Position numbers and translations under genes: made by a program. Under the pieces are notes generated by a model. The model saw only the letters and a list, made by a program, of their open reading frames with translations. It had not been told where the DNA came from and ran no database searches. 63,751 nt of DNA from Nitrospirota bacterium. GTDB lineage: Bacteria; Nitrospirota; Thermodesulfovibrionia; UBA6902. Shown here piece after piece: positions 29,957 to 48,624 of this stretch; the stretch's first letter is position 1, and each line of letters opens with the position of its first letter. The stretch is from the NCBI GenBank assembly GCA_016234115.1, contig JACRHD010000066.1:1-63751 (forward strand). Reading direction: 5' to 3'.

Positions 29957-30421
29957 CTATTTATTTTTCTCGAAATCCTTCAGTGCCCTTGAAGCCTTCT
30001 CGGGAGACATATTCCCGTGGATCTTTTTATTAATTATGAGCACCGGCGCGATACTGCAGGCGCCGACACAGGCTATTTTTTCAAGAGTGAACTGGCTGTC
30101 ATAGGTTGTGTCTTCACCTTCGGCAATTGCGAGGTCGGCCCGTATCCTGTTGATCATCGGCTCCGCGCCTTTTACATGACACGCGGTGCCGCAGCAGGCC
30201 GTGATAATATTCTTGCCTCGCGGCTTTAAATAGAACTGGGCATAGAATGTCGCGACGCCGAAGAAGTTGCTCGCCGGGATGTTCAGTTTCTCGGAGAACC
30301 AGAACACTGTGTCCTCCGGGATATACCCATATGCTTCCTGAACGTCCTGAAGTATGGATATCACACTGCCTTTTTCCAGGTAGTATTTATCAAGAATTTT
30401 CCTGCATGCTTTCTCAATCAT
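29957..30421 (-). CDS. NuoE-like [2Fe-2S] subunit
   Basis: A 154-aa thioredoxin-like ferredoxin subunit, partner of NuoF-like proteins in formate dehydrogenases and soluble hydrogenases. The four cluster ligands appear as TACCGTACHVKG and ACVGACSIAP. The N-terminal helical part (QDVQEAYGYIPEDTVFW) is typical of NuoE. I start it at the ATG at 30421, preceded by GAGAGGTGG; the in-frame GTG at 30430 lies inside that ribosome-binding site. It is the first gene of the minus-strand operon nuoE-like, nuoF-like, cNMP-domain, fdhA. Confidence 0.93.
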   Translation of the reverse strand: MIEKACRKILDKYYLEKGSVISILQDVQEAYGYIPEDTVFWFSEKLNIPASNFFGVATFYAQFYLKPRGKNIITACCGTACHVKGAEPMINRIRADLAIAEGEDTTYDSQFTLEKIACVGACSIAPVLIINKKIHGNMSPEKASRALKDFEKNK

Positions 30422-30430
30422 CCAACCCAC

Positions 30431-31013
30431 CTCTCAGGGAATAAAGCGGAGTTTCTTGTATCCACAAAAACGTTTAGTTGTAACTCGGGCGAGCCGCTAT
30501 TCTATAAAAAAAAGAAAAATAAGTCAAAGGGCGGGGTAAGCCTTCAGTTACGAGTTATTACACACCCCTGCACCCCTCTCGAGAGGGGAGTAAAGACAAA
30601 GTCCCCTCCTGGGAGGGGTAAGGGGTGGGTCTCTTTAGGAACGTATATCTATCCCGTAAATGAATGCTTACAGGGCGGGATGTTGTGTCGGTATTCTTAA
30701 CTATGTCGGATTTTCTTACTCTTTGATGGAGAATGCAGTTTGAGATATAACTATTTATATTCTAAGAGTTCTTTATCTGCGGCATGGCTGGATTAAGAGG
30801 TTCTTTTATAAACAAATGTAGAAATTCTTTACAGAAAAATAAAAAAACACGGGGCTCGAATACACAGTATTACATTATTTCAAGCAGTTAAATGATAGGG
30901 CACAGAACTTGCAACGTTACCTCAGAACCTGAAAATTCGGGATAACAGACTTGAAAGGAAGGTGGAATTTGTTAGTCATGAAAAACAGTTCAAAATTTAA
31001 GGAGGTGAAGTTA
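30431..31013. other. Intergenic region between divergent operons
   Basis: 583 bp between the formate dehydrogenase operon (minus) and the PEP-CTERM gene (plus). It holds the 92-bp compound palindrome at 30541-30632 and an AT-rich stretch (30720-30900) that probably carries promoters for both sides. I see no supportable gene; an upstream extension of the PEP-CTERM frame to 30951 lacks a ribosome-binding site. Confidence 0.6.
30541..30632 (+). repeat. 92-bp compound palindromic element, copy 1
   Basis: Begins CTTCAGTTACGAGTTATTAC, continues ACACCCCTGCACCCCTCTC with its complement GAGAGGGG, then a spacer TAAAGACAAAG and a second hairpin CCCCTCCTGGGAGGGG, and ends GGGTGGGT. The copy at 42792-42884 is nearly identical in reverse orientation. 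Confidence 0.88.
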
Positions 31014-31652
31014 ATGAAAAAAATTACACAATTTGGTGTGATTTTTCTCGCCATTTGCGCCCTGGCGAGCACGGCTTTCGCAATAGCTTTTGATGAGGTC
31101 CCCTTAGGAAAGACTGACCCGGTTATCGACGGCGTCGGTTTCTGGGCCGGGGACCCGGCAGCGATTAATGACACGATAACAGATGACTCATGGTCTTCCG
31201 GCAACGCGTATCTGATGAGTGGGTATGATGACGGCACCGGCCTGAGCCCGGCCTCCTATGATTCTTTCATCGGGGTAAGCGCGCCTGTTGCTACGCTCTT
31301 CGGCGATGTGTCTCTTGATATTTTGTCGGAGTATCAGTTGCCGGGTGGAACTACGCTCTGGTTGCAGGGCGTGCTCGGAGGGGCGTTGGTTGAAGGCATA
31401 TCTCTGACGCTTCCCGATGTTGATAACGACTACCACAGCTTGTCGCTTGCCTTTGCGTCCGGGGCCGACACTCTTTACATCTATGATGATCTCGACAGCT
31501 TTGGTTTCGGCGAGGCTTTCCACATCGACAACTTTGGAAGCAATCCCTATGTGCCTGTTACGCCGCCGCCGGTACCCGAACCGTCTACGTTTTTGCTCTT
31601 GGCAGCCGGTTTGTTAGGCGCCGGATACTTAAAGACAAAGAAGAAGTTTTAG
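31014..31652 (+). CDS. PEP-CTERM sorting-domain protein
   Basis: A 212-aa secreted protein. The signal peptide MKKITQFGVIFLAICALAS ends around TAFA. The body is a beta-rich, Asp/Gly-rich domain of unknown function. The C-terminus VPEPSTFLLLAAGLLGAGYL followed by KTKKKF is a textbook PEP-CTERM signal: VPEP motif, membrane helix, basic tail. It is predicted to be processed by an exosortase (EpsH/XrtA type), not encoded here. AAGGAGGTGAAGTTA directly precedes the chosen ATG, which rules out the longer upstream frame. Confidence 0.92.
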   Translation: MKKITQFGVIFLAICALASTAFAIAFDEVPLGKTDPVIDGVGFWAGDPAAINDTITDDSWSSGNAYLMSGYDDGTGLSPASYDSFIGVSAPVATLFGDVSLDILSEYQLPGGTTLWLQGVLGGALVEGISLTLPDVDNDYHSLSLAFASGADTLYIYDDLDSFGFGEAFHIDNFGSNPYVPVTPPPVPEPSTFLLLAAGLLGAGYLKTKKKF

Positions 31653-31748
31653 ACGTCCTGACGATTGATCGTGGCAGTATTCAAGTTTAAAGTCCCTCCC
31701 CCATTCACGGGGGAGGGATAACCATTAATGAAGGGGGGAGACGCGAAA

Positions 31749-34700
31749 ATGAAACACAAATTTGTAGCAACGTACAGGAAGCATTTGTTTCTGCTTGTTT
31801 TTCTTATGTCCTTCTGTTTGTTTCTGGTCCAGCCCGTCCTGGCTGATCCGCTTGTCGTGAGAGTTCAGCCAAGCGGCGAGGCCTTCTCCAATGCCTATGT
31901 TATATCAGGCGAGGCAAGGACGTATTTCGGCAATGTTGAAGGGGGTACACCTCCTTATAGCGCCAGATGGGAACTCAGCAACGGTACTGATACCGGTTTT
32001 GCCGGCGTCGGCGACCCGAGGTATATTCCCATTGACGGACAGGCCTTCGGCAGCGCCGGAGATCACTGGGCCAGACTGACGGTGACTGACGCGGACGGCG
32101 CTTCCAGCTCCGCAACTATCGGGCTGAAAGTCATTGCCGCTGCCGACGATACAATGAACCGCCGGAAGAATTCGGCAATCGACAGGGGCCTCAGGTATCT
32201 TTACCAGTCTGAAATTCTTACGGCTTCCGGCAGTTACTGGCCGGGCAGCGGAGAACCTGTTGCAAGCACAGGCATGGCCCTGATCGCCCTGGAAAACCAC
32301 GGACACAATCTGCAGTCGCCGGACAGCGACATCTATAAAAAATCCGCGCAGCAGGGCGTCCAGTATCTTCTGAACAACGCTTATAATGTCCCGCTCGCGG
32401 ACCAGGTCTGCATAGGCAACCCCGAGGCCAATGACGGCGATGCCGACAACGACGGGATAGGGGTGATTTTTACGCCACTCGGCAATAACGGCCAATATTG
32501 GGATGAAATGTATATAGACCCGATAGCCATGCTGGCCCTGGTAAATAGCTGCGATGAGGCATTTGCCAGGACCTTAACGGCAGACACTACGTCAGGAGAC
32601 GTTAACGGCATGACTTTGTGGGACATCATTGTAGACGCCAAGGACTTTCTTGCTTATTCGCAGAATGACAACCAGTCGTCGTCAGGCAGCGGGTACTTTA
32701 GTTGCGAAGGTATGGACAGTAGCATGTGGGGAAACATATCGGGGTTGACCCTAAATGGTGTCGGCGCTGATATGTGGGTTGATTCTTCCTGGTACTATGA
32801 TTACAGCGACGACTGGAACAGTTACGCACAGGTTTATCTGACAGGTCCCGTAGTATCAGATTTCTATGCTTTTAAATATAACCCGGAAGAACTGCCGTGT
32901 CCGGGAGACTTTGAGGTAGACTGGGGAGACGGCAGCCCGGTTGAGACCTTCCATACAGAAGTCGATTGTACGCAGTGGCCGTGGATTGATGTGTACGGTG
33001 CACTCCATACATATCCCGGAGCGGGCGATTACACGATCTCTGTTTCATATGAAGGGACCTTTTTCGCTGCAATGACTGTTACTGCTACAGAAGCATCCTC
33101 TTTTACATGCCCCGGTGCTTTTGAGTTGGACTGGGGTGACGGAACAAGCACAAGCATCGAGGGCTGGGATGATTGTCCGGATTATACCTGGACAGACGGC
33201 CTCTCCCACTCATATGCTGAAGGAGGGACATACACGGTATCGGCCTATCACGACGGCGTCTTTATCTGTTCTTCGGATGTTACCGTTGCCGGGACTTCCG
33301 GCGCGTGTGAAAATGTGCCTGGAAACGGCTGGCGCTATGAGAGGAACTATCCCGACAGCGACAACTCCGTTACCCAATGGCCTGTCCTTGCGTTACAGGA
33401 AGCGCGCGACCGCTGGGGCATAAATCTCAACCCGAATGTCAATACCGAGCTTGATCATTGGCTCCTCTACAGTCAGAATGCCAACGGTGGATTCGGCTAT
33501 ACCGGCGGCGAGGATTATAACTGGCTCAACTTCCCCAAGACAGGCGCGGGGCTGATCATGCTCAAGTATCTCGGACAAACGCCGGCAGAGCCGCGTGTCT
33601 CCAATGCCTTGAGCTTCCTCGATTTGAACTGGGACTGGGAAAACCTCGGACACATGTACGGCATGTACGGCTTCTATAAAGGCATGAAGCTTCTGGGCCT
33701 TGCAGACCTGGACGGCAGGGCGTGGGAAGATATCTACACCGAGTATCTTGTCGCCAATCAGTGGGCGTCGAATGCATGGGGTGACAATGGATACTGGTTT
33801 GACCAGAATTTTTCGACCTATACAGCGCTGGCCATCCTCGCACCCGCGGTTGCGGGACTGCCGCCTGTGGCTGACGCCGGAGGTCCGTATCCTGACGTAA
33901 ATGCCGGCCAGACCGTGCAACTCGACGGCAGCGGCTCATACCATCAGGATTCCGCAAGAAGCATTGTGAAGTATGAATGGGATTTCAACTCATCAAACGG
34001 ACTGTGGTGGGACACCAAACCTGCCCCTGACGCAGGTGAAGGCGCCGTGGGCATGGCTGCCGACGCCTCTTATCCTGATGCGGGCAGCGACCAGACATAT
34101 ACCGTAACTCTGCGTGTAACAGATGACGGCGCGCCTGTCCAGACGGACACTGATACAGCGGCCGTAAATGTGACGTCAGGCGAAGTCGCGCCTGTTGCGC
34201 TCACCAACGGCCCATGGACCGGATTGCCGAATGACGTAATCACGTTTGACGGCTCCGCGTCTCATGATCCGAATTCCTGCACAACGGCCGGTGACCCGTC
34301 CTGTTTAGGCGATTCAATTGTGTTATACGAATGGGACCTCGACGGCGACGGCAATTTCAATGAGCCCGGCGACGACGGCACGCCTGTAACTCCGGGTGAT
34401 TACAGTGTAGTGACAAAGAGCTTCCCTGAGCCGATTTCACTCTCGGCGGTATTGAGGGTAACAGATGAATACGGCAAACAGGGCGTATCCGCCGCCGCAT
34501 ACAACATCATCTCTATTGCCATTGTCTACGGTCAGGAGTACAGTACCTGTTTCAAGGTAAAAATTGATCGCTTCAATGAACGCCATGGCATATCGGTCAT
34601 ATTCCAGAACCTCGGCAACGGCGACGCGGAGAATCTGGTGATGACGCTGATGCAGACGCCTACGAACCTCTCGATACTCAAATCTGTCGTGAATATCGGC

Positions 34701-34877
34701 AGCCTCGGGGCAGGTGACTCGGAAACATCCGACTGTGATCCGGTGGCCAAGACCGCGGAAGTCGAGTTAAAGTTCGACAGACGCGTTGTCCCGACGGGCT
34801 CATGGCTCTGGAAGGCGGAATTCGACTTTAACGGCAAGCATTATGTCGTAAACAACATTCCACCGCTCGCGCCATAG
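31749..34877 (+). CDS. Secreted alpha-toroid and PKD repeat protein
   Basis: A 1042-aa exported protein. The signal peptide has a hydrophobic core LFLLVFLMSFCLFLVQPVLA. Two stretches resemble prenyltransferase/squalene-cyclase type toroid repeats: about residues 135-320 (IDRGLRYLYQSE, STGMALIALENHG) and 530-700 (DHWLLYSQNANGGFGY, GAGLIMLKYLG). Between them (about 382-514) are two PKD-like modules, each with a WGDG strand and a HTYPGAGDY or HSYAEGGTY turn. Two more PKD domains follow (PPVADAGGPYPDVNAGQTVQLDGSGS and PVALTNGPW), and a CARDB-like end. There is no membrane anchor or sorting signal. No catalytic residues can be assigned. The start at 31749 is preceded by a GGGGGGAG run. Confidence 0.8.
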   Translation: MKHKFVATYRKHLFLLVFLMSFCLFLVQPVLADPLVVRVQPSGEAFSNAYVISGEARTYFGNVEGGTPPYSARWELSNGTDTGFAGVGDPRYIPIDGQAFGSAGDHWARLTVTDADGASSSATIGLKVIAAADDTMNRRKNSAIDRGLRYLYQSEILTASGSYWPGSGEPVASTGMALIALENHGHNLQSPDSDIYKKSAQQGVQYLLNNAYNVPLADQVCIGNPEANDGDADNDGIGVIFTPLGNNGQYWDEMYIDPIAMLALVNSCDEAFARTLTADTTSGDVNGMTLWDIIVDAKDFLAYSQNDNQSSSGSGYFSCEGMDSSMWGNISGLTLNGVGADMWVDSSWYYDYSDDWNSYAQVYLTGPVVSDFYAFKYNPEELPCPGDFEVDWGDGSPVETFHTEVDCTQWPWIDVYGALHTYPGAGDYTISVSYEGTFFAAMTVTATEASSFTCPGAFELDWGDGTSTSIEGWDDCPDYTWTDGLSHSYAEGGTYTVSAYHDGVFICSSDVTVAGTSGACENVPGNGWRYERNYPDSDNSVTQWPVLALQEARDRWGINLNPNVNTELDHWLLYSQNANGGFGYTGGEDYNWLNFPKTGAGLIMLKYLGQTPAEPRVSNALSFLDLNWDWENLGHMYGMYGFYKGMKLLGLADLDGRAWEDIYTEYLVANQWASNAWGDNGYWFDQNFSTYTALAILAPAVAGLPPVADAGGPYPDVNAGQTVQLDGSGSYHQDSARSIVKYEWDFNSSNGLWWDTKPAPDAGEGAVGMAADASYPDAGSDQTYTVTLRVTDDGAPVQTDTDTAAVNVTSGEVAPVALTNGPWTGLPNDVITFDGSASHDPNSCTTAGDPSCLGDSIVLYEWDLDGDGNFNEPGDDGTPVTPGDYSVVTKSFPEPISLSAVLRVTDEYGKQGVSAAAYNIISIAIVYGQEYSTCFKVKIDRFNERHGISVIFQNLGNGDAENLVMTLMQTPTNLSILKSVVNIGSLGAGDSETSDCDPVAKTAEVELKFDRRVVPTGSWLWKAEFDFNGKHYVVNNIPPLAP

Positions 34878-34913
34878 GCGCAGGCAGTGTCAATGTCTGA
34901 GACGCTGTAAACG

Positions 34914-34948
34914 GGAGGAGGGGGTATTATGAAATATCCCCTCCTTTC
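34914..34948 (+). terminator. Probable terminator after the PKD protein
   Basis: AGGAGGGGGTATT pairs with AATATCCCCTCCT around a tiny loop. It is a strong stem but followed only by TTTCC, so termination may be partial. Confidence 0.55.
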
Positions 34949-35119
34949 CACTTCATCTTCTTCTTATGGATCCTGTTTGACCAAAACAGTGGAAATCAAC
35001 TTCATGGTCCTTTTCTCATGTTAATGAAACGAGGTTTGTCGCATTGCCAACAGCGCCGAAACTCCATATAATAAACAGAAACAAATATCACTAACCAACA
35101 GGAAAGAGAGAAATGCAGT

Positions 35120-35962
35120 ATGAAAAAGAACAGGAGCCTGTATTTTTTCCTTTGCGCGTTATTCTGCATTCCGATTGTTATTAATAATGCATTCGCGCAG
35201 AATCTGCCTTCGGAAAAAGCGCCGGAGCAAAATGGTCCGCAGGAAAAGCCCCCTGCCGTAAGTGTCCCTCTGCAAAGGCCCTTTGAGCCTAAGGCCCCGC
35301 AGGCGCAGGGACAAGCGGCGATAAACATCGAGAAGGCCGCGCCGGGTATTTTCCGCATCGGCGAAATTACCATAAACAAGAAAATAGGGTCCGTTTCGTT
35401 TCCTGCCCGGATCAACATGGACAAGGGACTCCTGGAATATCTTATAGTCAATAAGGGGGGCAAAACTCACGAAAGTCTCTTGAGGACGGATGTGACGCCT
35501 TATGATCTTCAGATCGCTTTTTTGCTCATCGGGTTTGAGGGTTCGGACCGTCCCCTTAAGGGGCAGGGAGACCCTGAAAGGCCTAAGGGCGAACCTGTGG
35601 AAATAACAATCGCCTTCAATGATAAAGAAGACAGGACCGTACAGGTAAAAGGCGAGGATTGGATCATCATAAAAAATAAGGATGAACAGAGGAACGTAGA
35701 GAAACTGGATTATGTTTTCACAGGCTCTATGGTCTATAACGGGCAATTTCTCGCCCAGAGCAGCGGGTCCATTGCCGCCCTGTACCACGACCCGGCCGCC
35801 TTGATCGACAATTCCTCAACAGGCGGGGAAAGCGATGATATATGGTTTGTCAAGGAAGGGGCCGTCCCCGCTGTGGGGACACCCGTCAAGGTAAATATAA
35901 AGGCGATAGGCACACGGGCAAAAGGTCCCGGAAGGGGCATCTTCAAAAAGGAGGCTCAATGA
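35120..35962 (+). CDS. YdjY-domain secreted protein
   Basis: A 280-aa protein with the signal peptide MKKNRSLYFFLCALFCIPIV ending near NAFA. A Pro-rich linker occupies residues 28-72. The YdjY domain follows: KKIGSVSFPARINMDKGLLE, GGKTHESLLRTDVTPYDLQIAFLLIG, and a second half with VEKLDYVFTGSMVYNGQFLAQ and SGSIAALYHDPAALIDN. YdjY domains have no established function. The ATG of the next gene overlaps its stop (ATGA), so the two are translationally coupled and probably act together. Confidence 0.88.
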   Translation: MKKNRSLYFFLCALFCIPIVINNAFAQNLPSEKAPEQNGPQEKPPAVSVPLQRPFEPKAPQAQGQAAINIEKAAPGIFRIGEITINKKIGSVSFPARINMDKGLLEYLIVNKGGKTHESLLRTDVTPYDLQIAFLLIGFEGSDRPLKGQGDPERPKGEPVEITIAFNDKEDRTVQVKGEDWIIIKNKDEQRNVEKLDYVFTGSMVYNGQFLAQSSGSIAALYHDPAALIDNSSTGGESDDIWFVKEGAVPAVGTPVKVNIKAIGTRAKGPGRGIFKKEAQ

Positions 35963-37128
35963 AACTGCTGGCCGGATTACTTCTGATTATGCTGACATGC
36001 CTGCCGCTCCCGCTCAATTCGTACGCCGGGAATACGGTAAGCTCGTCAACGACGGACGTCTCTCTTAAAAATGAGGTCGAAAGCGCTATCGGCAAAGGAC
36101 TTACGTGGCTTGCCGCCCGGCAGAACCCGGAGGGGTGGTGGTCTCAGCAGGAGCATCCCGCATTAACGGCCCTTGCGTTAATGTCGTTTCAGGGAGACCC
36201 TACGGGTTTTTATAAGAAGAAATATGCGGACCGGATCAATAAAGGATATGATTTTCTAAGGACTGCCGTGAAGCCGGACGGCTCCATTTATATCAAGGAC
36301 GTTTACGTCAATTACAACACCGCCGTATGCAACACCGCGTTTGTAGTGGCCGGGCGTCCTGAATTCGAGCCGATCATAAAGAACGCCCGCGACTACCTCA
36401 TCGGCAGCCAGCATGACGAAGGGGAGGCCGGCATGGCCGATTCACCATATGACGGCGGCATCGGCTATGGACGCACCGACAGAAACCCTGACCTTTCCAA
36501 TACGGTCCTGGCCCTGGAATCCATCTACTACAGCCGTTACCTGAAGGGGGAGGAAGACGCAGACCTCAACTGGGAGGCCGCTATAAAGTTCATAACCCGC
36601 ACCCAGCACCTGCCCGGATATAATGACGAGAAATGGGCCAGCGATGACCCGTACAATAAGGGAGGCTTCGCATATTTCCCCGGAAACAGCAGGGCCGGAG
36701 ACATGACGCTTCCCGACGGCAAGGTGGTCCCACGGGCCTACGGCAGCATGAGCTACGCGGGTCTTCTGAGTTACATATACGCCCAGATGGACAGAAACGA
36801 TCCCCGGGTAAAGGCAGTCTACGAATGGCTGGGCCGGAACTTTTCCGTCGATGAGAACCCCGGCGCCGGAGAGAGAGGACAGGACGGCCTTTACTATTAC
36901 TATCATACTATGGCAAAGGGACTTTCCCTTTACGGCGCGGACAACATAAAACTTGCCGACGGCAGGATGGTCAACTGGCGTGAGGCGCTTGCAAAGAAAT
37001 TGATGAACCTGCAAAACAGCGAGGGTTTCTGGGTAAATGAAAAGAGCGCCCGCTGGATGGAGAAGGACCCCGTGCTGGTGACGGCCTATTCTCTGCTGGC
37101 GCTGGAGATGGTGTGGAGAGGGATGTAA
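35959..37128 (+). CDS. Secreted prenyltransferase/squalene-oxidase-repeat protein
   Basis: A 389-aa exported protein with signal peptide MKLLAGLLLIMLTCLPLPL ending near SYAG. The mature part carries toroid repeats: GKGLTWLAARQNPEGWWSQQ, ALTALALMSFQGD, NTVLALESIYYSRYL, MSYAGLLSYIYAQMDRND, and a final NSEGFWVNEKSARWMEKDP. Classical cyclase DxDD or protein-prenyltransferase zinc motifs are not evident, so catalysis should not be assumed. AAGGAGG inside the YdjY gene serves this ATG. It is coupled to the YdjY gene and just upstream of the ebo cluster; whether it belongs to that cluster is unknown. Confidence 0.85.
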   Translation: MKLLAGLLLIMLTCLPLPLNSYAGNTVSSSTTDVSLKNEVESAIGKGLTWLAARQNPEGWWSQQEHPALTALALMSFQGDPTGFYKKKYADRINKGYDFLRTAVKPDGSIYIKDVYVNYNTAVCNTAFVVAGRPEFEPIIKNARDYLIGSQHDEGEAGMADSPYDGGIGYGRTDRNPDLSNTVLALESIYYSRYLKGEEDADLNWEAAIKFITRTQHLPGYNDEKWASDDPYNKGGFAYFPGNSRAGDMTLPDGKVVPRAYGSMSYAGLLSYIYAQMDRNDPRVKAVYEWLGRNFSVDENPGAGERGQDGLYYYYHTMAKGLSLYGADNIKLADGRMVNWREALAKKLMNLQNSEGFWVNEKSARWMEKDPVLVTAYSLLALEMVWRGM

Positions 37129-37137
37129 CATGACGAT

Positions 37138-37168
37138 CTCAAATTTCAGATTTCAAATTTCAGATTCA
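37138..37168. repeat. Heptanucleotide array upstream of eboD
   Basis: AAATTTC, AGATTTC, AAATTTC, AGATTCA. It fills most of the 51-bp gap between the toroid gene and eboD. Confidence 0.75.
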
Positions 37169-37179
37169 CCGCAACCAAA

Positions 37180-38391
37180 ATGAAAATAATTCAACAGCAG
37201 TTCACGGTGAGCTATTCATACCCCGTCATTTTCACCCGCGACGTCTTCGGCGTCCCTAATCGCGCCCTTTCGGATATTTTGCCGTCCTCCGGCCAGCAGA
37301 AGAACAGGGTGCTTGTTGTGATCGATTCCAGGGTATTCGACGCGACCCCCGGGTTGATAGAGAAGATCGAGAAATATGCCAGCCGTAACGGCGGCGTGAT
37401 GGAATTTATCACTTCCCCCGTCATCATAAAAGGCGGGGAAGAATGCAAGAAGGACCACTCCGAAGTGGAGAAGATCCACGCTCTTATAGAAAAGAACCAC
37501 ATGTGCCGGCATTCTTTTGTGCTGGCCCTCGGAGGGGGGGCGGTGCTTGATGTGGCCGGCTATGCCGCGGCGACCGCCCACAGGGGCCTCCGCCTCATCC
37601 GCGTGCCGACCACGACGCTCGCTCAAAATGACGCGGGGGTCGGCGTAAAAAACGGGATCAACGCATTCGGCAGGAAGAATTTCATCGGCGCCTTTGCGCC
37701 GCCTTACGCGATCATCAATGATTTCGATTTTCTTAAAACGCTCCCGGCAAGGACCCTTCGGGCCGGGCTTGCGGAGGCGGTGAAAGTCGCCCTTATAAAG
37801 GACAGGGACTTTTTTGATTTCCTGTATAACGAGAGACGCAGGCTTTCCACGTTTGTCCCTGAAGTCATGGAGCGGGCCATCATCAGGTGCGCGGAGCTGC
37901 ATATCGAGCACATTGGCACAAGCGGAGACCCCTTTGAATTCGGTTCTTCGCGGCCGCTTGATTTCGGCCACTGGTCGGCCCATAAGATTGAAGAGCTGAC
38001 GGAAGGCGAGGTCCAGCACGGCGAAGCGGTGGCGATGGGGATCGCCCTTGATTCGCTATACTCCCGCTGCTGCGGACTCATCAGCGAGATCGATTTGCAC
38101 AGGATATTCTCGACGCTGGAGGAGATAGGGTTCGATCTTTATCACTGGGCCCTCAGTTGGATAGACATAAAGGGCGCTATCCGGGAATTTCAGGAGCATA
38201 TCGGGGGCGAACTCACCCTCCCCCTTCTGAAGGGAATCGGCGACAAGATCGAGACGCGGGAAATAGATTCTAATTTGTTTAAGCAGTGTGTTAATATCCT
38301 TGCTGAGAGGAGCAAAGGAAAGGAGAGCAAAAATGTCCATGGAGATCTCCCCGATGTCGGCCGTGCAGGCGCTGGAAACCTACTTCCTTGA
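37180..38391 (+). CDS. eboD: Dehydroquinate synthase-like sugar phosphate cyclase EboD
   Basis: A 403-aa member of the AroB/sugar-phosphate-cyclase fold. The NAD-binding GGGAVLDVAGYAAATAHRG is near residue 115, RVPTTTLAQNDAGVGVKNGI near 142, and the metal-ligand region RAGLAEAVKVALIKD near 195, with later His ligands in DFGHWSAHKIEEL and HGEAVAMG. In the ebo cluster this enzyme is EboD and its substrate is unknown; it should not be annotated as shikimate-pathway AroB. It is first in the plus-strand run and its 3' end overlaps eboA by 59 bp. The weak Shine-Dalgarno leaves the start slightly open. Confidence 0.85.
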   Translation: MKIIQQQFTVSYSYPVIFTRDVFGVPNRALSDILPSSGQQKNRVLVVIDSRVFDATPGLIEKIEKYASRNGGVMEFITSPVIIKGGEECKKDHSEVEKIHALIEKNHMCRHSFVLALGGGAVLDVAGYAAATAHRGLRLIRVPTTTLAQNDAGVGVKNGINAFGRKNFIGAFAPPYAIINDFDFLKTLPARTLRAGLAEAVKVALIKDRDFFDFLYNERRRLSTFVPEVMERAIIRCAELHIEHIGTSGDPFEFGSSRPLDFGHWSAHKIEELTEGEVQHGEAVAMGIALDSLYSRCCGLISEIDLHRIFSTLEEIGFDLYHWALSWIDIKGAIREFQEHIGGELTLPLLKGIGDKIETREIDSNLFKQCVNILAERSKGKESKNVHGDLPDVGRAGAGNLLP

Positions 38392-38644
38392 CAATCGCGC
38401 AAGGCTGCTTGAAATAGCCTCGTTTCTCGACCGCATCGACAGGTACAAGGAATCCTCGGCGGCGAAAGACGACTTCCGCTACAAGTCTTTCATAAAAGCG
38501 CTCAGGCTCGTCATTGAGTGCGGAAAAGACAGGACCCAGAATGTTCAGCTCCTGTTCAGCGATTTATCGGCGGGGCCGATTGAAAATGCTGCCGGACTGA
38601 AGGCGCACGGGGCCTGGGAAGGGGCCTTCCGTGAAGGCAATTGA
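38333..38644 (+). CDS. eboA: EboA-like protein
   Basis: A 103-aa helical protein (AVQALETYFLDNRARLLEIA, then FRYKSFIKALRLVIECG). I identify it as EboA mainly from position, between EboD and the TatD-like EboB; the sequence alone is not decisive, and the protein appears short for EboA as I remember it. AAGGAGAGC lies upstream of the ATG. It overlaps eboD at its start and the next gene by 14 bp at its end, so all are one transcription unit. Confidence 0.55.
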   Translation: MSMEISPMSAVQALETYFLDNRARLLEIASFLDRIDRYKESSAAKDDFRYKSFIKALRLVIECGKDRTQNVQLLFSDLSAGPIENAAGLKAHGAWEGAFREGN

Positions 38645-39434
38645 TCCTCATATCCACATGGTCTCAAGGACCACGGATGATTACCTTGCCCTTGCGATAA
38701 ACGGGATACATACTATTACCGAACCTGCTTTCTGGCCGGGATTCGACCGCAAAGGCGTAGACGGTTTTCACGACTATTTCCACCATCTCACCGTTGTGGA
38801 GCCGGCGCGCGCCGCGAGGTTCAGGATACGGCATTACTGCTGGATAGGCCTTAACTCCAAGGAGTCCGAAAACCCGGAATTAGCTGAAGAAGTGTTGAAA
38901 ATAATCCCCCAATACCTCGACAGGCCCACAGTGCTGGGACTCGGAGAGATAGGTCTGAACAAGAACAGCCTTAACGAGATAAAGGCGCTGGAAAGGCAGC
39001 TTGGTATCGCCGCGGAAAGAAATGATATGATTCTGGTCCATACCCCCCACCTCGAGGACAAGCTCAAAGGCACACGCATAATCATGGACATGATCCTGAG
39101 CGACAAACGCCTCAGTCCTTCCCGCGTGCTTATAGACCACGCTGAAGAGCACACCATCGGGGAGATAAAAGACAACGGTTTCTGGTTCGGCCTTACACTT
39201 TATCCGAACTCAAAGGGCAGTCCCGAGCGCGCGGTCGATGCCGTAGAGGTATTCGGCCCGGACAATATCTGCATCAACTCATCCGCCGACTGGAGCGTCA
39301 GCGATCCCCTGGCGACTGTGAAATGCGCGAATGAAATGAGAAGAAGGGGGCATCCCGAGGCGACAATCCATAAGGTGTTTTACGAAAACCCGAAGGCCTT
39401 TCTGGGCCAATCCCCGAAATTCAGGGCGGAATGA
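38631..39434 (+). CDS. eboB: TatD-like metal-dependent hydrolase EboB
   Basis: A 267-aa TIM-barrel hydrolase. It begins with the metal-binding DPHIHM motif (residues 4-9). LGLGEIGLNK near 105 supplies the catalytic Glu, MILVHTPH near 137 and VLIDHAEEH near 170 supply His ligands, and INSSADWSVSDP near 222 supplies the terminal Asp. This is the amidohydrolase/TatD ligand set. In ebo clusters the TatD-like protein is EboB. The start codon is GTG at 38631, inside the eboA end, and the ATGA overlap with eboE continues the coupling. The substrate is unknown. Confidence 0.82.
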   Translation: MKAIDPHIHMVSRTTDDYLALAINGIHTITEPAFWPGFDRKGVDGFHDYFHHLTVVEPARAARFRIRHYCWIGLNSKESENPELAEEVLKIIPQYLDRPTVLGLGEIGLNKNSLNEIKALERQLGIAAERNDMILVHTPHLEDKLKGTRIIMDMILSDKRLSPSRVLIDHAEEHTIGEIKDNGFWFGLTLYPNSKGSPERAVDAVEVFGPDNICINSSADWSVSDPLATVKCANEMRRRGHPEATIHKVFYENPKAFLGQSPKFRAE

Positions 39435-40531
39435 TCACCTACTGCACGAACATCCATCCCGGTGAAAGCTGGGATGAGGTGCTGGCGAATCTGAACACCT
39501 GTTTACCCGAAGTGAAAAAGGCCGTTTCGCCGGACCGGTCCTTCCCCGTAGGCATGAGGCTCTCAAATCACGCTTCACGGGAAATATCCGAAGAGGCCTC
39601 GTCGCGGTTTAAGGACTGGTGTCAACAGCATGATTATTACGTTTCCACAATAAACGGTTTCCCGTTCGGGACCTTCCATTCCTTAACCGTAAAAGAAAAT
39701 GTATACCTGCCTGACTGGCGGCATCCGGAGCGTGCTGAATACACAAAAAGACTGGCGCGTCTGCTGGACGCGTGGATGCCTCCGGGCAGGACGGGGTCGA
39801 TTTCCACTGTGCCCATCGGCTTCAGGAGACACACCGGACGCGGGGACTACGGTCTGATCAGAAATAACCTTACAGGCACGCTTGAGTATCTTGACGGTCT
39901 GAAGCAGAGGAGCGGCAAAGAGATTATTCTCTCCCTCGAGCCGGAGCCCGGGTGTCTCCTTGAGACGGCGGCGGACGTGGTGGAATTTTTTGAGGAGATG
40001 AGGTTCCCGGATGAGCTGAGTAGCGCAATCGGCGTCTGTTATGACTGCTGTCATCACGCAGTTGAATTTGAAGGGCCGCTTGAATCCCTCGCCCGGCTCT
40101 CCGACTGCGGTATAAAGATCGGCAAGCTGCAGGTATCGGCCGCCCTGAGTATTTTACACCGGCAGCGCGGGGCGCTGGATAAGTTTACCGAGCCGCGCTA
40201 TCTGCACCAGGTGGTCATTAGGCGACGGGACGGCGCGCTGGCGCGTTACGACGATCTGCCGGAGGCGTTAAGTGATTACAATAGTGAGACGGATGACGAG
40301 TGGCGCGTTCATTTTCATGTGCCCGTTTTTTTTGAAGGGACGGACACGTACGCGACAACTAAAAGCTTTACGGAAAAGGTCATCTCAATAATCGATAAAG
40401 ACATACTGCTTGAAGTCGAGACATATACCTATGATGTTCTGCCGCAGGAGCTGCGGATGAGGACGGTCACTGAGTTAATAATCCGGGAGATACAATGGGT
40501 GCAGGAGCAGCTCAAAGCGCAGAGAGCATAG
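39431..40531 (+). CDS. eboE: Metabolite traffic protein EboE (TIM barrel)
   Basis: A 366-aa xylose-isomerase-like TIM-barrel protein. YCTNIHPGESWDEVLANL at the N-terminus is a recognisable EboE feature. Metal-ligand positions appear in LSLEPEPGCLLETAADV (near residue 180), GVCYDCCHHAVEFE (near 208) and FHVPVFFEG (near 295). It starts with ATGA overlapping the eboB stop. In cyanobacteria an ebo cluster is required for export of the scytonemin monomer to the periplasm (established from memory, Nostoc). No scytonemin genes are seen here, so the cargo must be another metabolite. Confidence 0.88.
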   Translation: MITYCTNIHPGESWDEVLANLNTCLPEVKKAVSPDRSFPVGMRLSNHASREISEEASSRFKDWCQQHDYYVSTINGFPFGTFHSLTVKENVYLPDWRHPERAEYTKRLARLLDAWMPPGRTGSISTVPIGFRRHTGRGDYGLIRNNLTGTLEYLDGLKQRSGKEIILSLEPEPGCLLETAADVVEFFEEMRFPDELSSAIGVCYDCCHHAVEFEGPLESLARLSDCGIKIGKLQVSAALSILHRQRGALDKFTEPRYLHQVVIRRRDGALARYDDLPEALSDYNSETDDEWRVHFHVPVFFEGTDTYATTKSFTEKVISIIDKDILLEVETYTYDVLPQELRMRTVTELIIREIQWVQEQLKAQRA

Positions 40532-40618
40532 GGCAAAGCGTTAAAGCAAAGCAGAAGAGAAGGCAGCGAACAAAATGCTAAGGGCAGAAGGCGCAAAGTA
40601 TGGAACAGCTAAAACGAT

Positions 40619-40662
40619 ATGCGCTTTGCGCTATGCCCCATGCACTATGCGCTATGCGATTC
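40619..40662. repeat. Heptanucleotide array upstream of eboF
   Basis: GCGCTTT, GCGCTAT, GCCCCAT, GCACTAT, GCGCTAT. It ends five bases before the eboF ATG and creates a spurious N-terminal extension of the open frame. A looser GCAAAGC-like stretch precedes it (40530-40600). Confidence 0.85.
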
Positions 40663-40666
40663 TTAT

Positions 40667-42034
40667 ATGAAACGTACTGTCGTCCTTAACGTCGTCGGGC
40701 TTACCCGCTCTCTAATCGGAGGGCAAACGCCGAATTTACGGGCGCTGCTGTCAAACAGCGTAAACATAAAAGCGATCACCCCGGCCGTCACCTGCTCAAT
40801 GCAGTCGACTTACCTGACGGGAAGGCCCCCTTCGGAGCACGGCATAGTCGGCAACGGGTGGTACTTCCGCGACCTCTCGGAGGTCCTGTTCTGGAGGCAG
40901 TCGAACCGCCTCGTGCAGTCCGAAAAGATCTGGCATGTTGCAAAGCGGCGCGACCCTTCATTCACCTGCGCGAACAATTTCTGGTGGTACAACATGGCGA
41001 CCGACGCCGATTACGCGGTGACGCCGAGACCGCTGTATTGCGCCGACGGCAGGAAACTCCCTGACTGCTATTCCATTCCGGCGGATTTGCGAGACAGGTT
41101 TAACCGGGAGTTCGGCCTGTTTCCGCTTTTCCAGTTCTGGGGGCCTGCGACTTCCATCGTTTCCAGCGAATGGATCGGCAAGGCCGCAATGGCCGTTGAG
41201 GAAATGTATAAACCGGCCCTGAACCTTGTATATCTTCCGCACCTCGACTATGCGCTTCAGAAGGAGGGTCCCGACGGCGATATAGAAAAGGACCTCGCTG
41301 AAATCGACGCCCTCTGCGGCAGGCTCATCGGCTTCTTCCGGGACAGGGGATGCAGGGTGGTCGTGCTTTCGGAATACGGCATCACCGCGGTAAAAAATGC
41401 AATCCACCCAAACAGGATACTGAGGGACGCCGGATATCTTTCTCTTAAGGTCGATCTCGGCAGGGAATACATGGATTTCGGGACTTGCCGCGCCTTTGCG
41501 GTCTCGGACCACCAGGTTGCGCACATTTATATCAGGAAGAAAGAAGACATCCCGGCAGTGAAGGCGCTGTTCGGTAAGGCGCCGGGCGTGGAGAGTGTTT
41601 TGGATGAAGAAGGGAAAAGGCAATACGGTCTCGCTCACGAGAGGGCGGGAGAGCTGGTCCTCATCTCAAACAGCGACGCCTGGTTCACTTACTATTACTG
41701 GGCGGATGACGCAAAGGCCCCGGATTACGCAAGGACCGTAAACATCCATGCAAAGCCGGGTTACGACCCGTGCGAATTGTTCATAGACCCTGCCGTTTCA
41801 TTTCCAAAAATGAAGATAGGGTGGACGCTGCTGAAAAAAATTTTAGGTTTCCGGTACCTGATGGACGTAATCCCCCTCGATGCCGCGCTGGTCAAAGGCT
41901 CTCACGGCAGGGTGACTGATAACGACGATGAAGGGCCTTTATTCATGACAACGGAACCGAAGTTTGTTAATTCACAAACCGTAAAGGCGCGGGAAGTCTT
42001 TGAGCTCCTCCTAAATCATGTTTTCAACGATTAA
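40667..42034 (+). CDS. eboF: Alkaline-phosphatase-superfamily phosphodiesterase EboF
   Basis: A 455-aa nucleotide pyrophosphatase/phosphodiesterase-like enzyme. TPAVTCSMQSTYLTGRPPSE near residue 36 includes the nucleophile Thr in the TCSMQST segment. YLPHLDYALQK near 190, VVLSEYGI near 235 and KGSHGRV near 410 supply the remaining metal ligands. The start at 40667 (MKRTVVLNVVGL) excludes the array-derived extension. No clear ribosome-binding site is visible because the array occupies the leader. It overlaps eboC by 17 bp. Confidence 0.85.
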   Translation: MKRTVVLNVVGLTRSLIGGQTPNLRALLSNSVNIKAITPAVTCSMQSTYLTGRPPSEHGIVGNGWYFRDLSEVLFWRQSNRLVQSEKIWHVAKRRDPSFTCANNFWWYNMATDADYAVTPRPLYCADGRKLPDCYSIPADLRDRFNREFGLFPLFQFWGPATSIVSSEWIGKAAMAVEEMYKPALNLVYLPHLDYALQKEGPDGDIEKDLAEIDALCGRLIGFFRDRGCRVVVLSEYGITAVKNAIHPNRILRDAGYLSLKVDLGREYMDFGTCRAFAVSDHQVAHIYIRKKEDIPAVKALFGKAPGVESVLDEEGKRQYGLAHERAGELVLISNSDAWFTYYYWADDAKAPDYARTVNIHAKPGYDPCELFIDPAVSFPKMKIGWTLLKKILGFRYLMDVIPLDAALVKGSHGRVTDNDDEGPLFMTTEPKFVNSQTVKAREVFELLLNHVFND

Positions 42035-42727
42035 GAATTATCTCGAACTCTGCCGGATCGGCAATCTCCCGACTGTGTGGACGAACGTTCTTGCGGCGAT
42101 GATCCTTGCCGGGCCGGGATTTTCCATCCATGACTTTCCGGCGCTCTCTTTTCCATGTCGCTTTTTTATTCAGGCGGCATGTCTCTTAATGACGTCTTCG
42201 ACGCGGAAGGCGACAGGACAAAAAAGCCTTTCCGGCCGATTCCCTCCGGGCGGATTTCCGGCAGAAGCGCCTTTCGGTTTACAATCATACTTTTTGCGGG
42301 CGCGTTATCGCTTCTCGTATTTGTTCCCCATCGTGAGGCCGTCCTCGCCGGTATTACTCTTCTGACCCTGATTATTATTTATGATAAGTACCACAAGCCC
42401 AATCCTCTGAGTGTTATCCTTATGGCGGCGTGCAGGTTGATGGTCTTTGCAGTCGCTTCGATAGCAGTTACGGGGACGGTGGGAAAATTTGCGGCAACAG
42501 CGGGTCTTATTCAGTTTGCATATGTGCTTGTCGTCAGCATTGCTGCAAGGCGCGAAGTCGCCGGAGAGGCCCCTGACTCTGCTTCCGCAATTCCCTTCAT
42601 GATCGCCGGTATTTCTCTACTGGACGGCATTGTCATGGCAGTCCTCGAGTCGCCCGGATGGCTTGCGGCGGGAGTCGCCGGATTTGTACTGACATTGGCG
42701 GGGCAAAAATATTTCAGGGGAGATTGA
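42018..42727 (+). pseudogene. eboC: UbiA-like prenyltransferase EboC, frameshifted
   Basis: The reading is split between two frames: MFSTIKNYLELCRIGNLPTV from 42018, and from about 42140 the frame containing LFYSGGMSLNDVFDAEGD, where NDVFDAEGD is the UbiA-family Asp-rich motif. The shift equals a 1-nt loss near the TCTCTTTT or CTTTTTT runs at 42145-42165. Four or more hydrophobic helices follow (FTIILFAGALSLLVFV, LAAGVAGFVLTLAGQ). It could be a true inactivating deletion, a slippage site, or an assembly error. UbiA-like EboC is normally part of the cluster, so this affects whether the whole cluster works. Confidence 0.82.
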
Positions 42728-42729
42728 AG

Positions 42730-42925
42730 AAGTAACGAGTGACAAGTAACAAGGGACAGGTAATTTTGGGGTGTATCTTTGTGCCGGAAAGAAACCCACC
42801 CCCCCTACCCCTCCCAGGAGGGGACCTTGTCTTTAGTCCCCTCTTGAGAGGGGTGCAGGGGTGTGTTATAACTTGTAACTGAATGGATACCACGTAACAT
42901 GTTACTCGTTGCTTGTCACTAATGA
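42730..42925. repeat. Heptad arrays flanking the compound palindrome
   Basis: Left array 42730-42764 (GTAACGA, GTGACAA, GTAACAA, GGGACAG) and right array 42893-42925 (GTAACAT, GTTACTC, GTTGCTT, GTCACTA) are opposite in polarity. They enclose the element at 42792-42884. Confidence 0.75.
42792..42884 (-). repeat. Compound palindromic element, copy 2
   Basis: Reverse complement of the 30541-30632 element, with only scattered differences over about 92 bp, including the non-palindromic arm CAGTTAC(A/G)AGTTAT. Shared ends of this kind suggest a mobilised unit and not two independent hairpins. Confidence 0.88.
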
Positions 42926-42940
42926 CCGGAGTGTTGTTCG

Positions 42941-43285
42941 ATGAGTAAAAGACCCAAAAAGCCGCATATCCCGGCAGACAGAAGAGAGACCATCCGGCAG
43001 GGCATCACGGCGGCCCTGAAAGGGAACACTCTCTCGGCAAAGGAGCTGTCGGGGGCCCTCAGGGTCTCTGAAAAAGAAATATATGAGCACCTCAGCCATA
43101 TTCAGAAGACCGTCCATAAGAGCGATTATGTCATGGTCATTACGCCGGCCGAATGCAGGAAGTGCGGCTTTGTCTTTGAAAAAAGGGAAAAGCTGCAAAA
43201 GCCCGGCAGGTGTCCCATATGCCGGAGTGAATCGATAGAAGAGCCGCTGTTTGGGATTGCATCTAAGACTGCAGACAGCCACTGA
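42941..43285 (+). CDS. HTH plus zinc-ribbon transcriptional regulator (COG3357-like)
   Basis: A 114-aa protein. A winged-helix type HTH (ETIRQGITAALKGNTLSAKE, ALRVSEKEIYEHLSHIQKT) is followed by a zinc ribbon (CRKCGFVFEKREKLQKPGRC then PICRSESIE). This fusion matches predicted regulators of the COG3357 type. The last six residues (KTADSH) run into an AGCCAC-type hairpin repeat, so the native C-terminus may have been altered. The target is unknown. Confidence 0.82.
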   Translation: MSKRPKKPHIPADRRETIRQGITAALKGNTLSAKELSGALRVSEKEIYEHLSHIQKTVHKSDYVMVITPAECRKCGFVFEKREKLQKPGRCPICRSESIEEPLFGIASKTADSH

Positions 43286-43402
43286 TTTACGCAGATCGAC
43301 ACGGATTTTATGAATGTTCCTGCAGCTCGGGAATCCTTCCTAAAACAAAAAGTAACATATAAGTTTTTTCCAATCCGTGATTATCCGTGTTCATCCGTGG
43401 CC
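43275..43402. repeat. Long imperfect hairpin repeat (AGCCAC type)
   Basis: CAGCCACTGATTTACGCAGA at the start and ATCCGTGTTCATCCGTGGCC at the end. The middle includes a partial CTCGGGAATCCTTCC unit. Third copy of the family. Confidence 0.75.
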
Positions 43403-43535
43403 GAATGCCTCTTTGCAGTATTAAAGTTTCCCTCCGAAAAGCCGATAAAAGCAACTATCAAACTAAAATTTGGATGATAATTGTCGCCCATGGTGGGCGT
43501 CAATTGCGTCCCATTTCTGTTAAGGAGGTAGACAT

Positions 43536-46725: not shown

Positions 46726-48624
46726 ATGACTGCAAGCAAAAAGATTCTCACTTTTATAATTACGTTAGCTGTTGTATCTTGCCTGCGCGTCGCAGCTTCA
46801 TCTGCTTCAGAAGACAGCATCGTTCTTTTACAGAGGGCATTAGAGCGGGGAGAGATGGATTATCAGACTGCTCTTAATTATAAGCTTGACGCAATCTTTA
46901 ATAAGAAAAAACTCCCGAAGGCGTACCAGTCCGATGTGCCGCTTAAATCAGCAACCGGCGTAATCCACGAGGCCGTTCAGAACGGGCATCTCCTTTACAG
47001 GGACAATCAATATATCCTGTCGAGACCGACTGAGGGGGCCGACGAAGATTACTACGGCATAGGCGTAGCGGTTTGGTCGTATGACAGTCCCGGGGGGCAC
47101 TTCAAGATCCATTATACGGAAGATAATACAAACGGCGACGCAGTTTATGACTCGGACGGAAATCAGGGCACTGTTCCTCAGTATGTCACCGACCTTGTCG
47201 GGTATCTTGAAAATTCATGGGACCAGATTGTGACCGGCATGAGTTATACTGAGCCGCCCCCGGACGGCGCGGCAGGGGGGGACGGCAGGCTGGATGTATA
47301 CTTGATGGACATGAGCTCCTATGGGTATACAAATACGGGCGACGTATATATTGCCATAGAGAACGATTTCGCCGGCTTTCCTGAAAATCTCGACCCCGAT
47401 CAGAGACAGGGGGACCAGAAGGTAACAGCGGCCCATGAGTTCTTCCATACGTCCCAGCTTGAGTACACCACTAATTTTACTGCGAACCTCTGGTGGATGG
47501 AGGCGGCAGCGGTATGGGTCGAAGACATCGTTTATCCTGAGGTAAAAGATTACCTTAATTACGTCGGCTTCAAATATGATGACGCCAACGACAACGGACA
47601 ATGGGACAACGGCGAGACATGGTATAAAATAGACGGCGTGACAGAGGGGGGCGCCTCCGGGAGACCGGCCAGATGGTTCGACTTTACCTCATACCCATTG
47701 AATTCCACGGACAATACACACGAATACGGAACAAGCATATTCGCGCGATATCTTGCGGGCTCATATGGAAACGGCGTAATATCATCCATTTGGGAGAGGA
47801 TAGGAAATGGAGACACCGCGCTTTCAGCGATATCCAATGAGCTCTTGTCGCGGGGGACGACCTTAAGCGCGACTTTTAGCCTGTTTCAGGCCGCAAATTA
47901 CAGGAGGGATTATTCCGACGGCGATTATTACCCGCTTATTATGCATGAGGCGACGCGTGCGTCGTATCCCTGGAGTATCTCGGGAACGGTCGATCACCTG
48001 TCTTCCCGCTTTTATGCCTTCAAGCCTGACGGGACCTCATCGACGTTGACCCTGCTGTTTACTGACATGAACTCAGGCAGCCTCGCGGTCAAACTTGTAT
48101 TAACCAGGACCTCAGGCGGATATGATGAACAGGACATAGCCCTGGACAGTTCTTCCACGCAATATCAGGTAAACGGCTTCGGCGCGGACTCGACATATTC
48201 GAAAGTTGTTGCGATAATCATTAATGCGTCATCCTCCCTGGACGGGCAGGCATACGAAATATCGTCGGATATTGGAGGGACTCTTAGTGACGATGGAGGA
48301 GGGGGAGGAGGAGGAGGCTGTTTTATTGCAACTGCCGCATACGGCAGCTACCTTGCGGAGGAGGTGCGGGTCTTAAGAAAGTTCAGGGACACCCGCCTTT
48401 TGACAAATTCCGCGGGCAAGATGTTTGTACGCTATTATTATGAATTTTCGCCTCCTGTTGCGGATTATATCAGCAGGCACGCGGCCCTGAGGACTGCTGC
48501 AAGATTCATGCTTACTCCCGTAGTTTTCGCGGTCAAATATCCTTCGTGCTCCCTGATATTCGCGGGCCTTCTATTGCTTGTTTTATTCTGCAGGAAGCAT
48601 TCAACCACAGATAACTGCCTATAG
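46726..48624 (+). CDS. Putative metalloprotease with CFI-box-CTERM domain
   Basis: A 632-aa secreted protein with an N-terminal signal ([20 protein letters not shown]). A HEFFH motif ([17 protein letters not shown], about residues 232-248) is the HExxH zinc site, with [16 protein letters not shown] following as in MXAN_6640-like putative metalloproteases. A Gly run near residue 530 leads to [20 protein letters not shown], the CFI-box C-terminal domain, then [16 protein letters not shown] and a terminal hydrophobic helix with a basic end. That C-terminus is probably an anchoring or sorting signal. Proteolytic activity is inferred. Confidence 0.85.

Follow-up and report, generated by a model that had tools for sequence, protein, structure and literature searches.

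What may a protein with the ring fold of the terpene cyclases do outside the cytoplasm, and on which compound would it act? The question is raised by a locus of a Nitrospirota bacterium (Thermodesulfovibrionia, UBA6902) on contig JACRHD010000066.1 of the assembly GCA_016234115.1; this contig of 63,751 nucleotides, one of the 69 that make up a genome of 3.5 Mb, was analyzed whole and is referred to here as the window. Between positions 31014 and 37128 it carries four plus-strand genes whose products have Sec-type N-termini (judged by eye): a PEP-CTERM protein, a large toroid, a YdjY-domain protein and a small toroid. A previous sequence-only reading had described this run of exported-type genes, which are present as it stated, and had considered that secreted toroids of this kind have no known role. 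In the open-licence PubMed Central (PMC) literature no role was indeed found for them, nor any paper joining the toroid or YdjY with ebo; nonetheless, an ebo cluster that the earlier reading had missed lies next to these genes, and this adjacency together with the co-occurrence of toroid and EboE in other genomes provides a candidate role for the toroids. We propose, giving it about an even chance of being right, that the exported proteins are the extracytoplasmic module of the Ebo system. The features of the region are the following.

31014 to 31652, plus strand: PEP-CTERM protein (PF07589, E=1.6e-6), with an ATG start at 31014; a longer open reading frame (ORF) starts with TTG at 30951.
31749 to 34877, plus strand: large exported toroid, with an ATG start at 31749, an N-terminal PKD-like domain, an interrupted ring and C-terminal PKD-type domains.
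32898 to 33305, plus strand: two tandem PKD-like modules in the ring insert of the large toroid (residues 384-519).
35044 to 35072, plus strand: promoter-like site 5' of ydjY (11 of 12 matches); such sites are near chance in the region (13, against a mean of 10.5 in shuffles).
35120 to 35962, plus strand: YdjY-domain protein with a Sec-type N-terminus (NF040466, E 1.6e-39).
35959 to 37128, plus strand: small toroid with a Sec-type N-terminus; its start overlaps the ydjY stop (ATGA).
37180 to 38391, plus strand: EboD, a sugar-phosphate cyclase of the 3-dehydroquinate synthase superfamily (NF004852, E 2.5e-164), named EboD from its position in the cluster.
38288 to 38644, plus strand: EboA-like protein of uncertain start, named from its position and from blast matches among ebo loci; Pfam/NCBIfam profile searches gave no family match.
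38631 to 39434, plus strand: EboB, a TatD-type hydrolase (PF01026, E 3.7e-7).
39431 to 40531, plus strand: EboE (NF035939, E 1.5e-126, 422 bits against a cut-off of 250).
40619 to 42034, plus strand: EboF, a phosphodiesterase/pyrophosphatase (PF01663, E 7.2e-58).
42018 to 42727, plus strand: EboC, a UbiA prenyltransferase in two frames, whose 3' part matches PF01040 and NF035940.

The downstream genes form an Ebo cluster, given that an EboE above its cut-off is accompanied by EboD, UbiA, TatD and phosphodiesterase genes; EboD begins 52 bases after the small toroid, and the order is EboD-A-B-E-F-C. The eboC gene is split between frames, with the break between approximately 42113 and 42167, either by an assembly error or by a real lesion; because of this break, the match between the EboC ORF and NF035940 is partial (82.8 bits against a cut-off of 250). 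The arrangement recurs in two congeners (genomes are designated G and toroid loci L). In G003 the genes for PEP-CTERM, large toroid, YdjY, toroid, EboD, EboA, EboB, EboE and EboF follow in that order, and G006 shows the order of the window up to the end of its contig, its large toroid having only a remote similarity. The sequences retrieved 3' of EboF from these two genomes contained no EboC match. The eboD gene of G048 has a PEP-CTERM gene and a large-toroid relative immediately in front of it, and the YdjY-toroid pair is on another contig. Divergent toroids adjoin ebo in G028, G032 and G459, and in the Geobacter-type loci the ebo genes come immediately after the toroid.

Of the 77 toroid loci of the tree, 11 have ebo-type genes in the same locus, if a locus is counted when two or more of EboA/B/C/E/F match with an identity of 35% or higher. 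Among these 11, L020 and L024 represent an inositol variant, and the ebo set of L011 is also that of L012. In a quick tree of the toroids, with the variant loci omitted, ebo co-location is scattered and requires six changes, one of them being L018, scored as lacking ebo; three of the separate cases (L041, L108 and L109) are placed on long branches. The contig that holds L011 and L012 (CAIUWK010000095.1) has a full YdjY-toroid-ebo set followed by a second YdjY-toroid-EboD copy with an EboB fragment only, and a PEP-CTERM and large-toroid pair comes after each of the two YdjY-toroid copies.

The genomic link between toroid and ebo is strong. Among 61 relatives, toroid, EboE and YdjY are each found in six genomes, and the six are identical (G000, G003, G006, G028, G032, G048); within one genus the three show a joint, patchy presence (3 of 10 genomes). 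The phylum is represented by 245 genomes, some of them shared with the former set; EboE was detected in five of the 245 and a full-length toroid in three, all within those five, with three more weak toroid matches in giant proteins. The 367 Verrucomicrobiota genomes include 146 with EboE and 170 with the toroid family (E 1e-40): 134 have both, 36 the toroid only, 12 EboE only and 185 neither (odds ratio 57, Fisher 1e-50, ancestry not corrected for). In this first look at most five candidates were scored per genome, and some toroids may be missed. EboE is present in 33 of the 34 genomes with an orthologue-grade toroid (E ≤1e-125) and in 101 of the 136 remaining, divergent, toroid genomes, as compared with 12 of the 197 toroid-less genomes. 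Toroid and EboE are on one contig in nine of the 33 orthologue-grade genomes, once at 2.2 kb and eight times at 0.6-4.1 Mb; because of these distances, linkage alone does not explain the co-occurrence. For 50 toroid genomes, mostly chosen for having no complete ebo next door, EboE was over the cut-off in 34, weak in four (those of L020, L024, L033 and L037) and not detected in 12. Cultured bacteria with both toroid and EboE are Citrifermentans bremense, in whose toroid locus no YdjY was found, and Brevifollis gellanilyticus, whose locus L069 contains toroid and ydjY.

The partner most frequently found beside the toroid is YdjY. The protein of the window scores well above the NF040466 cut-off (135.5 against 50 bits), and in a local alignment E106, H117 and E118 are each kept in 69 of 70 sequences, D239 in 68 and D224 in 67; no solved relative was found with phmmer. 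At the junction, ...CTCAATGAAACTG..., the ydjY TGA overlaps the toroid ATG, the layout of translational coupling that had been pointed out from the sequence. From the 146 toroid relatives that a scan of genome contigs yielded, the 80 best loci were retained. Of these, 75 have at least 900 upstream bases, and in 58 of the 75 a YdjY gene of the same orientation immediately precedes the toroid; 18 of these 58 YdjY genes end with ATGA as in the window. Two further pairs (L081, L084) are uncounted because the toroid ORF is over-extended, and the pair of L037 is divergent in orientation. The expected conservation of the pair thus stands for these seeded loci but not for the divergent sister toroids, for which YdjY was adjacent in 0 of 18 (L116-L133, in the few kilobases fetched). 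The idea that YdjY always precedes the toroid was discarded, since the 58 of 75 seeded loci compare with 2 of 20 profile-picked ones, both of orthologue grade; this difference points to two toroid branches. The divergent branch is common in Verrucomicrobiota.

Besides the lack of YdjY next to the sister toroids, several observations weigh against a module shared by toroid and Ebo. Toroids occur without detected EboE, as in the above 36 of 170 Verrucomicrobiota genomes and in the genomes of L018, L022, L030, L032, L050, L070, L077, L079, L085, L088, L089 and L090; conversely, EboE lacks a toroid at E 1e-40 in the 12 Verrucomicrobiota and at E 1e-10 in G182 and G229. YdjY is less specific, being present in 10 of the 245 genomes of the phylum, four of them with EboE. 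Among 72,556 plasmid records no toroid match was found at E 1e-10 and EboE is present in 47 records; because ebo occurs toroid-free, the toroid module is not universal to Ebo, and from these plasmid records and from G182 and G229 it is seen that toroid and YdjY are not constant members of Ebo clusters. In four annotated plasmid ebo clusters no toroid is named. One plasmid cluster, of Salipiger (L112, 14666-16813), has a PQQ-dependent dehydrogenase following ebo, possibly a different exported partner.

Two further points bear on whether there is any functional link at all, given that toroid and ebo could be old genes of certain lineages that co-occur by ancestry. The P-values ignore ancestry and the comparison was made without an unrelated control gene, and in two annotated Verrucomicrobiota neighbourhoods (L050, L080) the YdjY-toroid pair lies beside housekeeping genes. 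Even so, we regard co-occurrence by ancestry as very unlikely: co-location appears in toroid branches that are far from one another (G028/G032, G459, G669, L041 and the Geobacter-plus-window clade, some of them long and of unsure position), and the joint patchy presence inside one genus also speaks against it.

The small toroid, of 389 residues, matches PF13243 (E=2.3e-6), passing the gathering score of Pfam SQHop_cyclase_C (27.3 against 26.1 bits), and has an E of 1.5e-8 with the squalene/oxidosqualene cyclase family TIGR01787, whose cut-off it fails (33.7 against 322.7 bits). AlphaFold2, using 78 aligned toroids, predicted a 12-helix ring of the alpha6/alpha6 toroid type with a mean pLDDT of 93.1. 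The best structural match of this model is squalene-hopene cyclase 2sqc (Z 26.7, rmsd 3.0, 285 residues); the next neighbours are other terpene cyclases, cellobiose 2-epimerases (Z up to 24.5), GH76 mannanases and AprG. For the large toroid, residues 137-736 match the same cyclase (Z 23.8, rmsd 3.5, 291 residues). According to these models both window toroids are alpha-toroids related to prenyl-chain cyclases, as had been predicted for the two products.

That sugar enzymes share the fold of the small toroid at similar scores is a point against our proposal, and it raises the alternative that the small toroid handles carbohydrates or cyclitols as an enzyme of the epimerase, hydrolase or aldolase type, its substrate being exopolysaccharide or a sugar-like head group and its prenyl-cyclase ancestry a relic. 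The neighbours that favour this include, in addition to the epimerases and the mannanases, AprG (titled transaldolase; Foldseek E 5.5e-6) and the methylmannose polysaccharide hydrolase MmpH; AprG and MmpH have a single ring of similar size, and their entries name sugar-acting proteins. Genes of the inositol-phosphate synthase family (L020, L022, L033, L037) and a Gfo/Idh/MocA gene (L073) are also found nearby. The toroid sequence profile speaks against it: among solved structures, only terpene cyclases are below an E of 0.001 (profile E 2.1e-15), and neither AprG nor MmpH is among them. The highest Z is likewise that of squalene-hopene cyclase, with the epimerases only about 2 lower in a comparison of fold similarity alone. 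On this evidence a sugar enzyme seems unlikely.

The inositol-related loci deserve description on their own. The family annotation of their synthase was tested in L037 and L020. L020, L033 and L037 have Ebo-like UbiA and phosphodiesterase genes together with epimerase-like TIM barrels, and no EboD match, L022 and L024 being partial variants; the EboC-like UbiA of L037 has 197.6 bits against a cut-off of 250. This variant cluster beside the toroid, in which the inositol-phosphate synthase family takes the place of EboD, hints that a cyclitol is involved.

The kinship with the cyclases leads to the catalytic residues. The DVDDTA of squalene-hopene cyclase aligns with D-L-S-N-T of the small toroid, in such a way that the catalytic DxDD reads D-L-S-N. 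The middle Asp is absent from all 78 aligned toroids (the window and 77 of the 80 scanned loci; L030, L083 and L086 were left out) and from all 21 of a second set formed by the window and 20 toroids hand-picked from the Verrucomicrobiota profile matches; nearly all members of the family have D-[L/M]-x-N instead. The missing Asp led us to set aside the reading of the toroid as a class II terpene cyclase that has kept its activity and, being secreted, makes a cyclic meroterpenoid outside the cytoplasm. This would be attractive in view of the sequence and fold kinship with squalene-hopene cyclase and with MstE, which was solved with prenylated dihydroxybenzoates, and of a UbiA prenyltransferase within the same cluster; with the proton donor gone, we consider it extremely improbable. 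Squalene-hopene cyclase, MstE and drimenyl diphosphate synthase resemble the small toroid in the alpha-toroid fold and in detectable sequence kinship. In contrast to the class II terpene cyclases, the small toroid has a Sec-type N-terminus (a crude export rule is satisfied by 72 of the 78 aligned toroids), a replaced DxDD, a single ring domain, conserved residues of its own and, often, a YdjY partner.

These residues show that the toroids are not motif-less, as they had been described: in the 21 sequences of the second set, G108, Y119, D178, L179, Y266, W290, N300, P301, G310, Q352, W358, N360, R365, E368 and Y377 are invariant and K320 is kept in 20, with P301 and R365 altered in the divergent toroids of G028 and G032. 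According to the predicted secondary-structure string, several of the conserved residues are at the starts of ring helices, a placement that fits a pocket in the model. A candidate motif, YYYYHTMAK, was withdrawn as universally invariant; its count of 78 of 78 is circular because YYYYHTMA was one of the peptide seeds that fetched these loci, and the His is replaced in profile-picked toroids and in some of the seven toroids from relatives and G669/G459.

A pocket without the proton donor could also belong to a non-catalytic carrier. Transcobalamin-type toroids are ligand-binding proteins, and in a similar manner the small toroid might bind the ebo compound and shuttle or display it, an explanation in line with the lost cyclase proton donor, the Sec-type N-terminus and the gene family found as an immediate neighbour of the toroid in L021, L025, L032 and L077, annotated as TonB-dependent receptor in the two loci tested (L032, L021). 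We consider it quite unlikely, considering that the conservation of D178, R365 and E368 (21 of 21) and of K320 (20 of 21) exceeds what a purely hydrophobic carrier needs, with the limit that some charged residues differ in G028, G032 and G459.

The large toroid, of 1042 residues, has a PKD_4 match (E=7.3e-11) in its C-terminal part, and its AlphaFold2 model is of low confidence overall (pLDDT 65.2, pTM 0.51). An insert at about residues 304-526 separates two ring helices, which agrees with the PKD modules that had been placed in the middle of the ring; it is present in three of ten aligned large toroids (window, L018 and L037) and absent from seven, the alignment excluding fragments or giant homologues in L012, L013, L015, L016, L019, L077 and L089. 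Its two modules, residues 384-453 and 454-519, align to each other with a score of 122, against a maximum of 24 in 500 shuffles. Since Pfam has no match within the insert at E 0.1, the PKD label rests on the sequence WGDG...HxY...G.Y, which we take to be the PKD hallmark.

With regard to the PEP-CTERM protein, the co-occurrence with exosortase that had been suggested as a check was observed, two exosortases being over the cut-off in the same genome. A PEP-CTERM-type protein adjoins the large toroid in L011 (twice), L013, L015, L018, L019, L025, L032 and L037, one of the two L011 genes being the gene also seen in L012, and in L017 it is next to a large-toroid fragment at a contig end. The PEP-CTERM motif ends nine of the ten distinct proteins that adjoin large toroids, the exception being L025, and PEP-CTERM proteins are also beside large toroids in G003, G006 and G048.

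The ebo genes have been tied to the export of the scytonemin monomer in Nostoc, with a cyclitol-containing lipid carrier proposed (PMC6282210, in the excerpted text), and an isoprenoid-cyclitol product had been proposed earlier (PMC5133447, likewise excerpted); these two excerpts mention neither YdjY nor toroids, unlike the window cluster. In common with the Ebo system of Nostoc scytonemin export and with the EDB cluster of Pseudomonas fluorescens, the window has EboD, A, B, E and F, and also EboC, which is frame-broken here. Whether a cyclitol takes part is uncertain because, in the excerpt of PMC9235831, an EboC-type enzyme was reported to prefer quinoline derivatives for farnesylation in vitro, which also weighs against our proposal. 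According to the excerpted text of PMC12188702, scytonemin requires an exosortase and the PEP-CTERM protein ScyE, the scytonemin locus has PEP-CTERM proteins as does the window, and these proteins are thought to act at the surface or the extracellular polysaccharide of scytonemin producers. From this requirement we read the window cluster as another Ebo with exported partners; by analogy, these would be the YdjY protein, which matches the NF040466 family and differs from it by its coupling to a toroid, and the cyclase-derived toroids.

In the mechanism that we propose, the product of the Ebo enzymes would be a prenylated compound, which may be a cyclitol, and Ebo would help a small molecule to reach the periplasm, as put forward in PMC5133447 and PMC6282210. 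The co-appearance of the small toroid with ebo suggests that this protein acts outside the membrane on the ebo product; with YdjY as partner it would receive the compound in the cavity of its ring, a legacy of the prenyl-chain cyclases, and then process it or hand it on, while the large PKD-toroid and the PEP-CTERM protein would localize the system to the cell surface or the extracellular polysaccharide. The toroids and YdjY presumably contact the Ebo product, and the chemistry itself is inferred. What is observed in favour of the module is the same-strand position upstream of ebo in the window and two congeners, the co-occurrence of toroid and EboE, the conserved YdjY-toroid pair of the orthologous branch, the Sec-type N-termini, and a cyclase-derived ring minus the cyclase proton-donor Asp.

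Both ends of the cluster carry a palindromic element of about 90 bases in inverted orientation, at approximately 30545-30635 on the minus strand and 42793-42885 on the plus strand, and no further copies of its core were found in the rest of the window with up to two mismatches. The pair enclosing the genes from PEP-CTERM to EboC may delimit a unit that is mobile or was acquired recently, which agrees with the patchy presence of the cluster in the genus. Rfam gave no matches across 30000-44000 of the window. Elsewhere, the window encodes an Eco57I-type restriction-modification protein (17192-20860) and a putative metalloprotease of the MXAN_6640 type with a CFI-box C-terminal domain (46726-48624). 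Other roles were rejected: a defence role, with no PADLOC match for the three proteins tested; viral carriage, with 56 stretches that matched a seed and none that encoded a relative; and carriage of the toroid on plasmids, with no matches in the plasmid collection.

In several bacterial phyla, Ebo may tentatively be viewed as having an extracytoplasmic half of its own, namely a secreted protein derived from the class II terpene cyclases, with a conserved pocket particular to it and no proton donor, which together with YdjY would be an enzyme or chaperone for an exported prenylated compound, the PKD-toroid and the PEP-CTERM protein being surface anchors. The ebo genes are widespread, and neither what they make nor how it is exported has been solved; a secreted protein whose presence follows that of ebo, even when the two are far apart on the chromosome, offers a testable handle on the identity and destination of the ebo product. 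If the proposal is true, a terpene-cyclase ring would be at work outside the cytoplasm.

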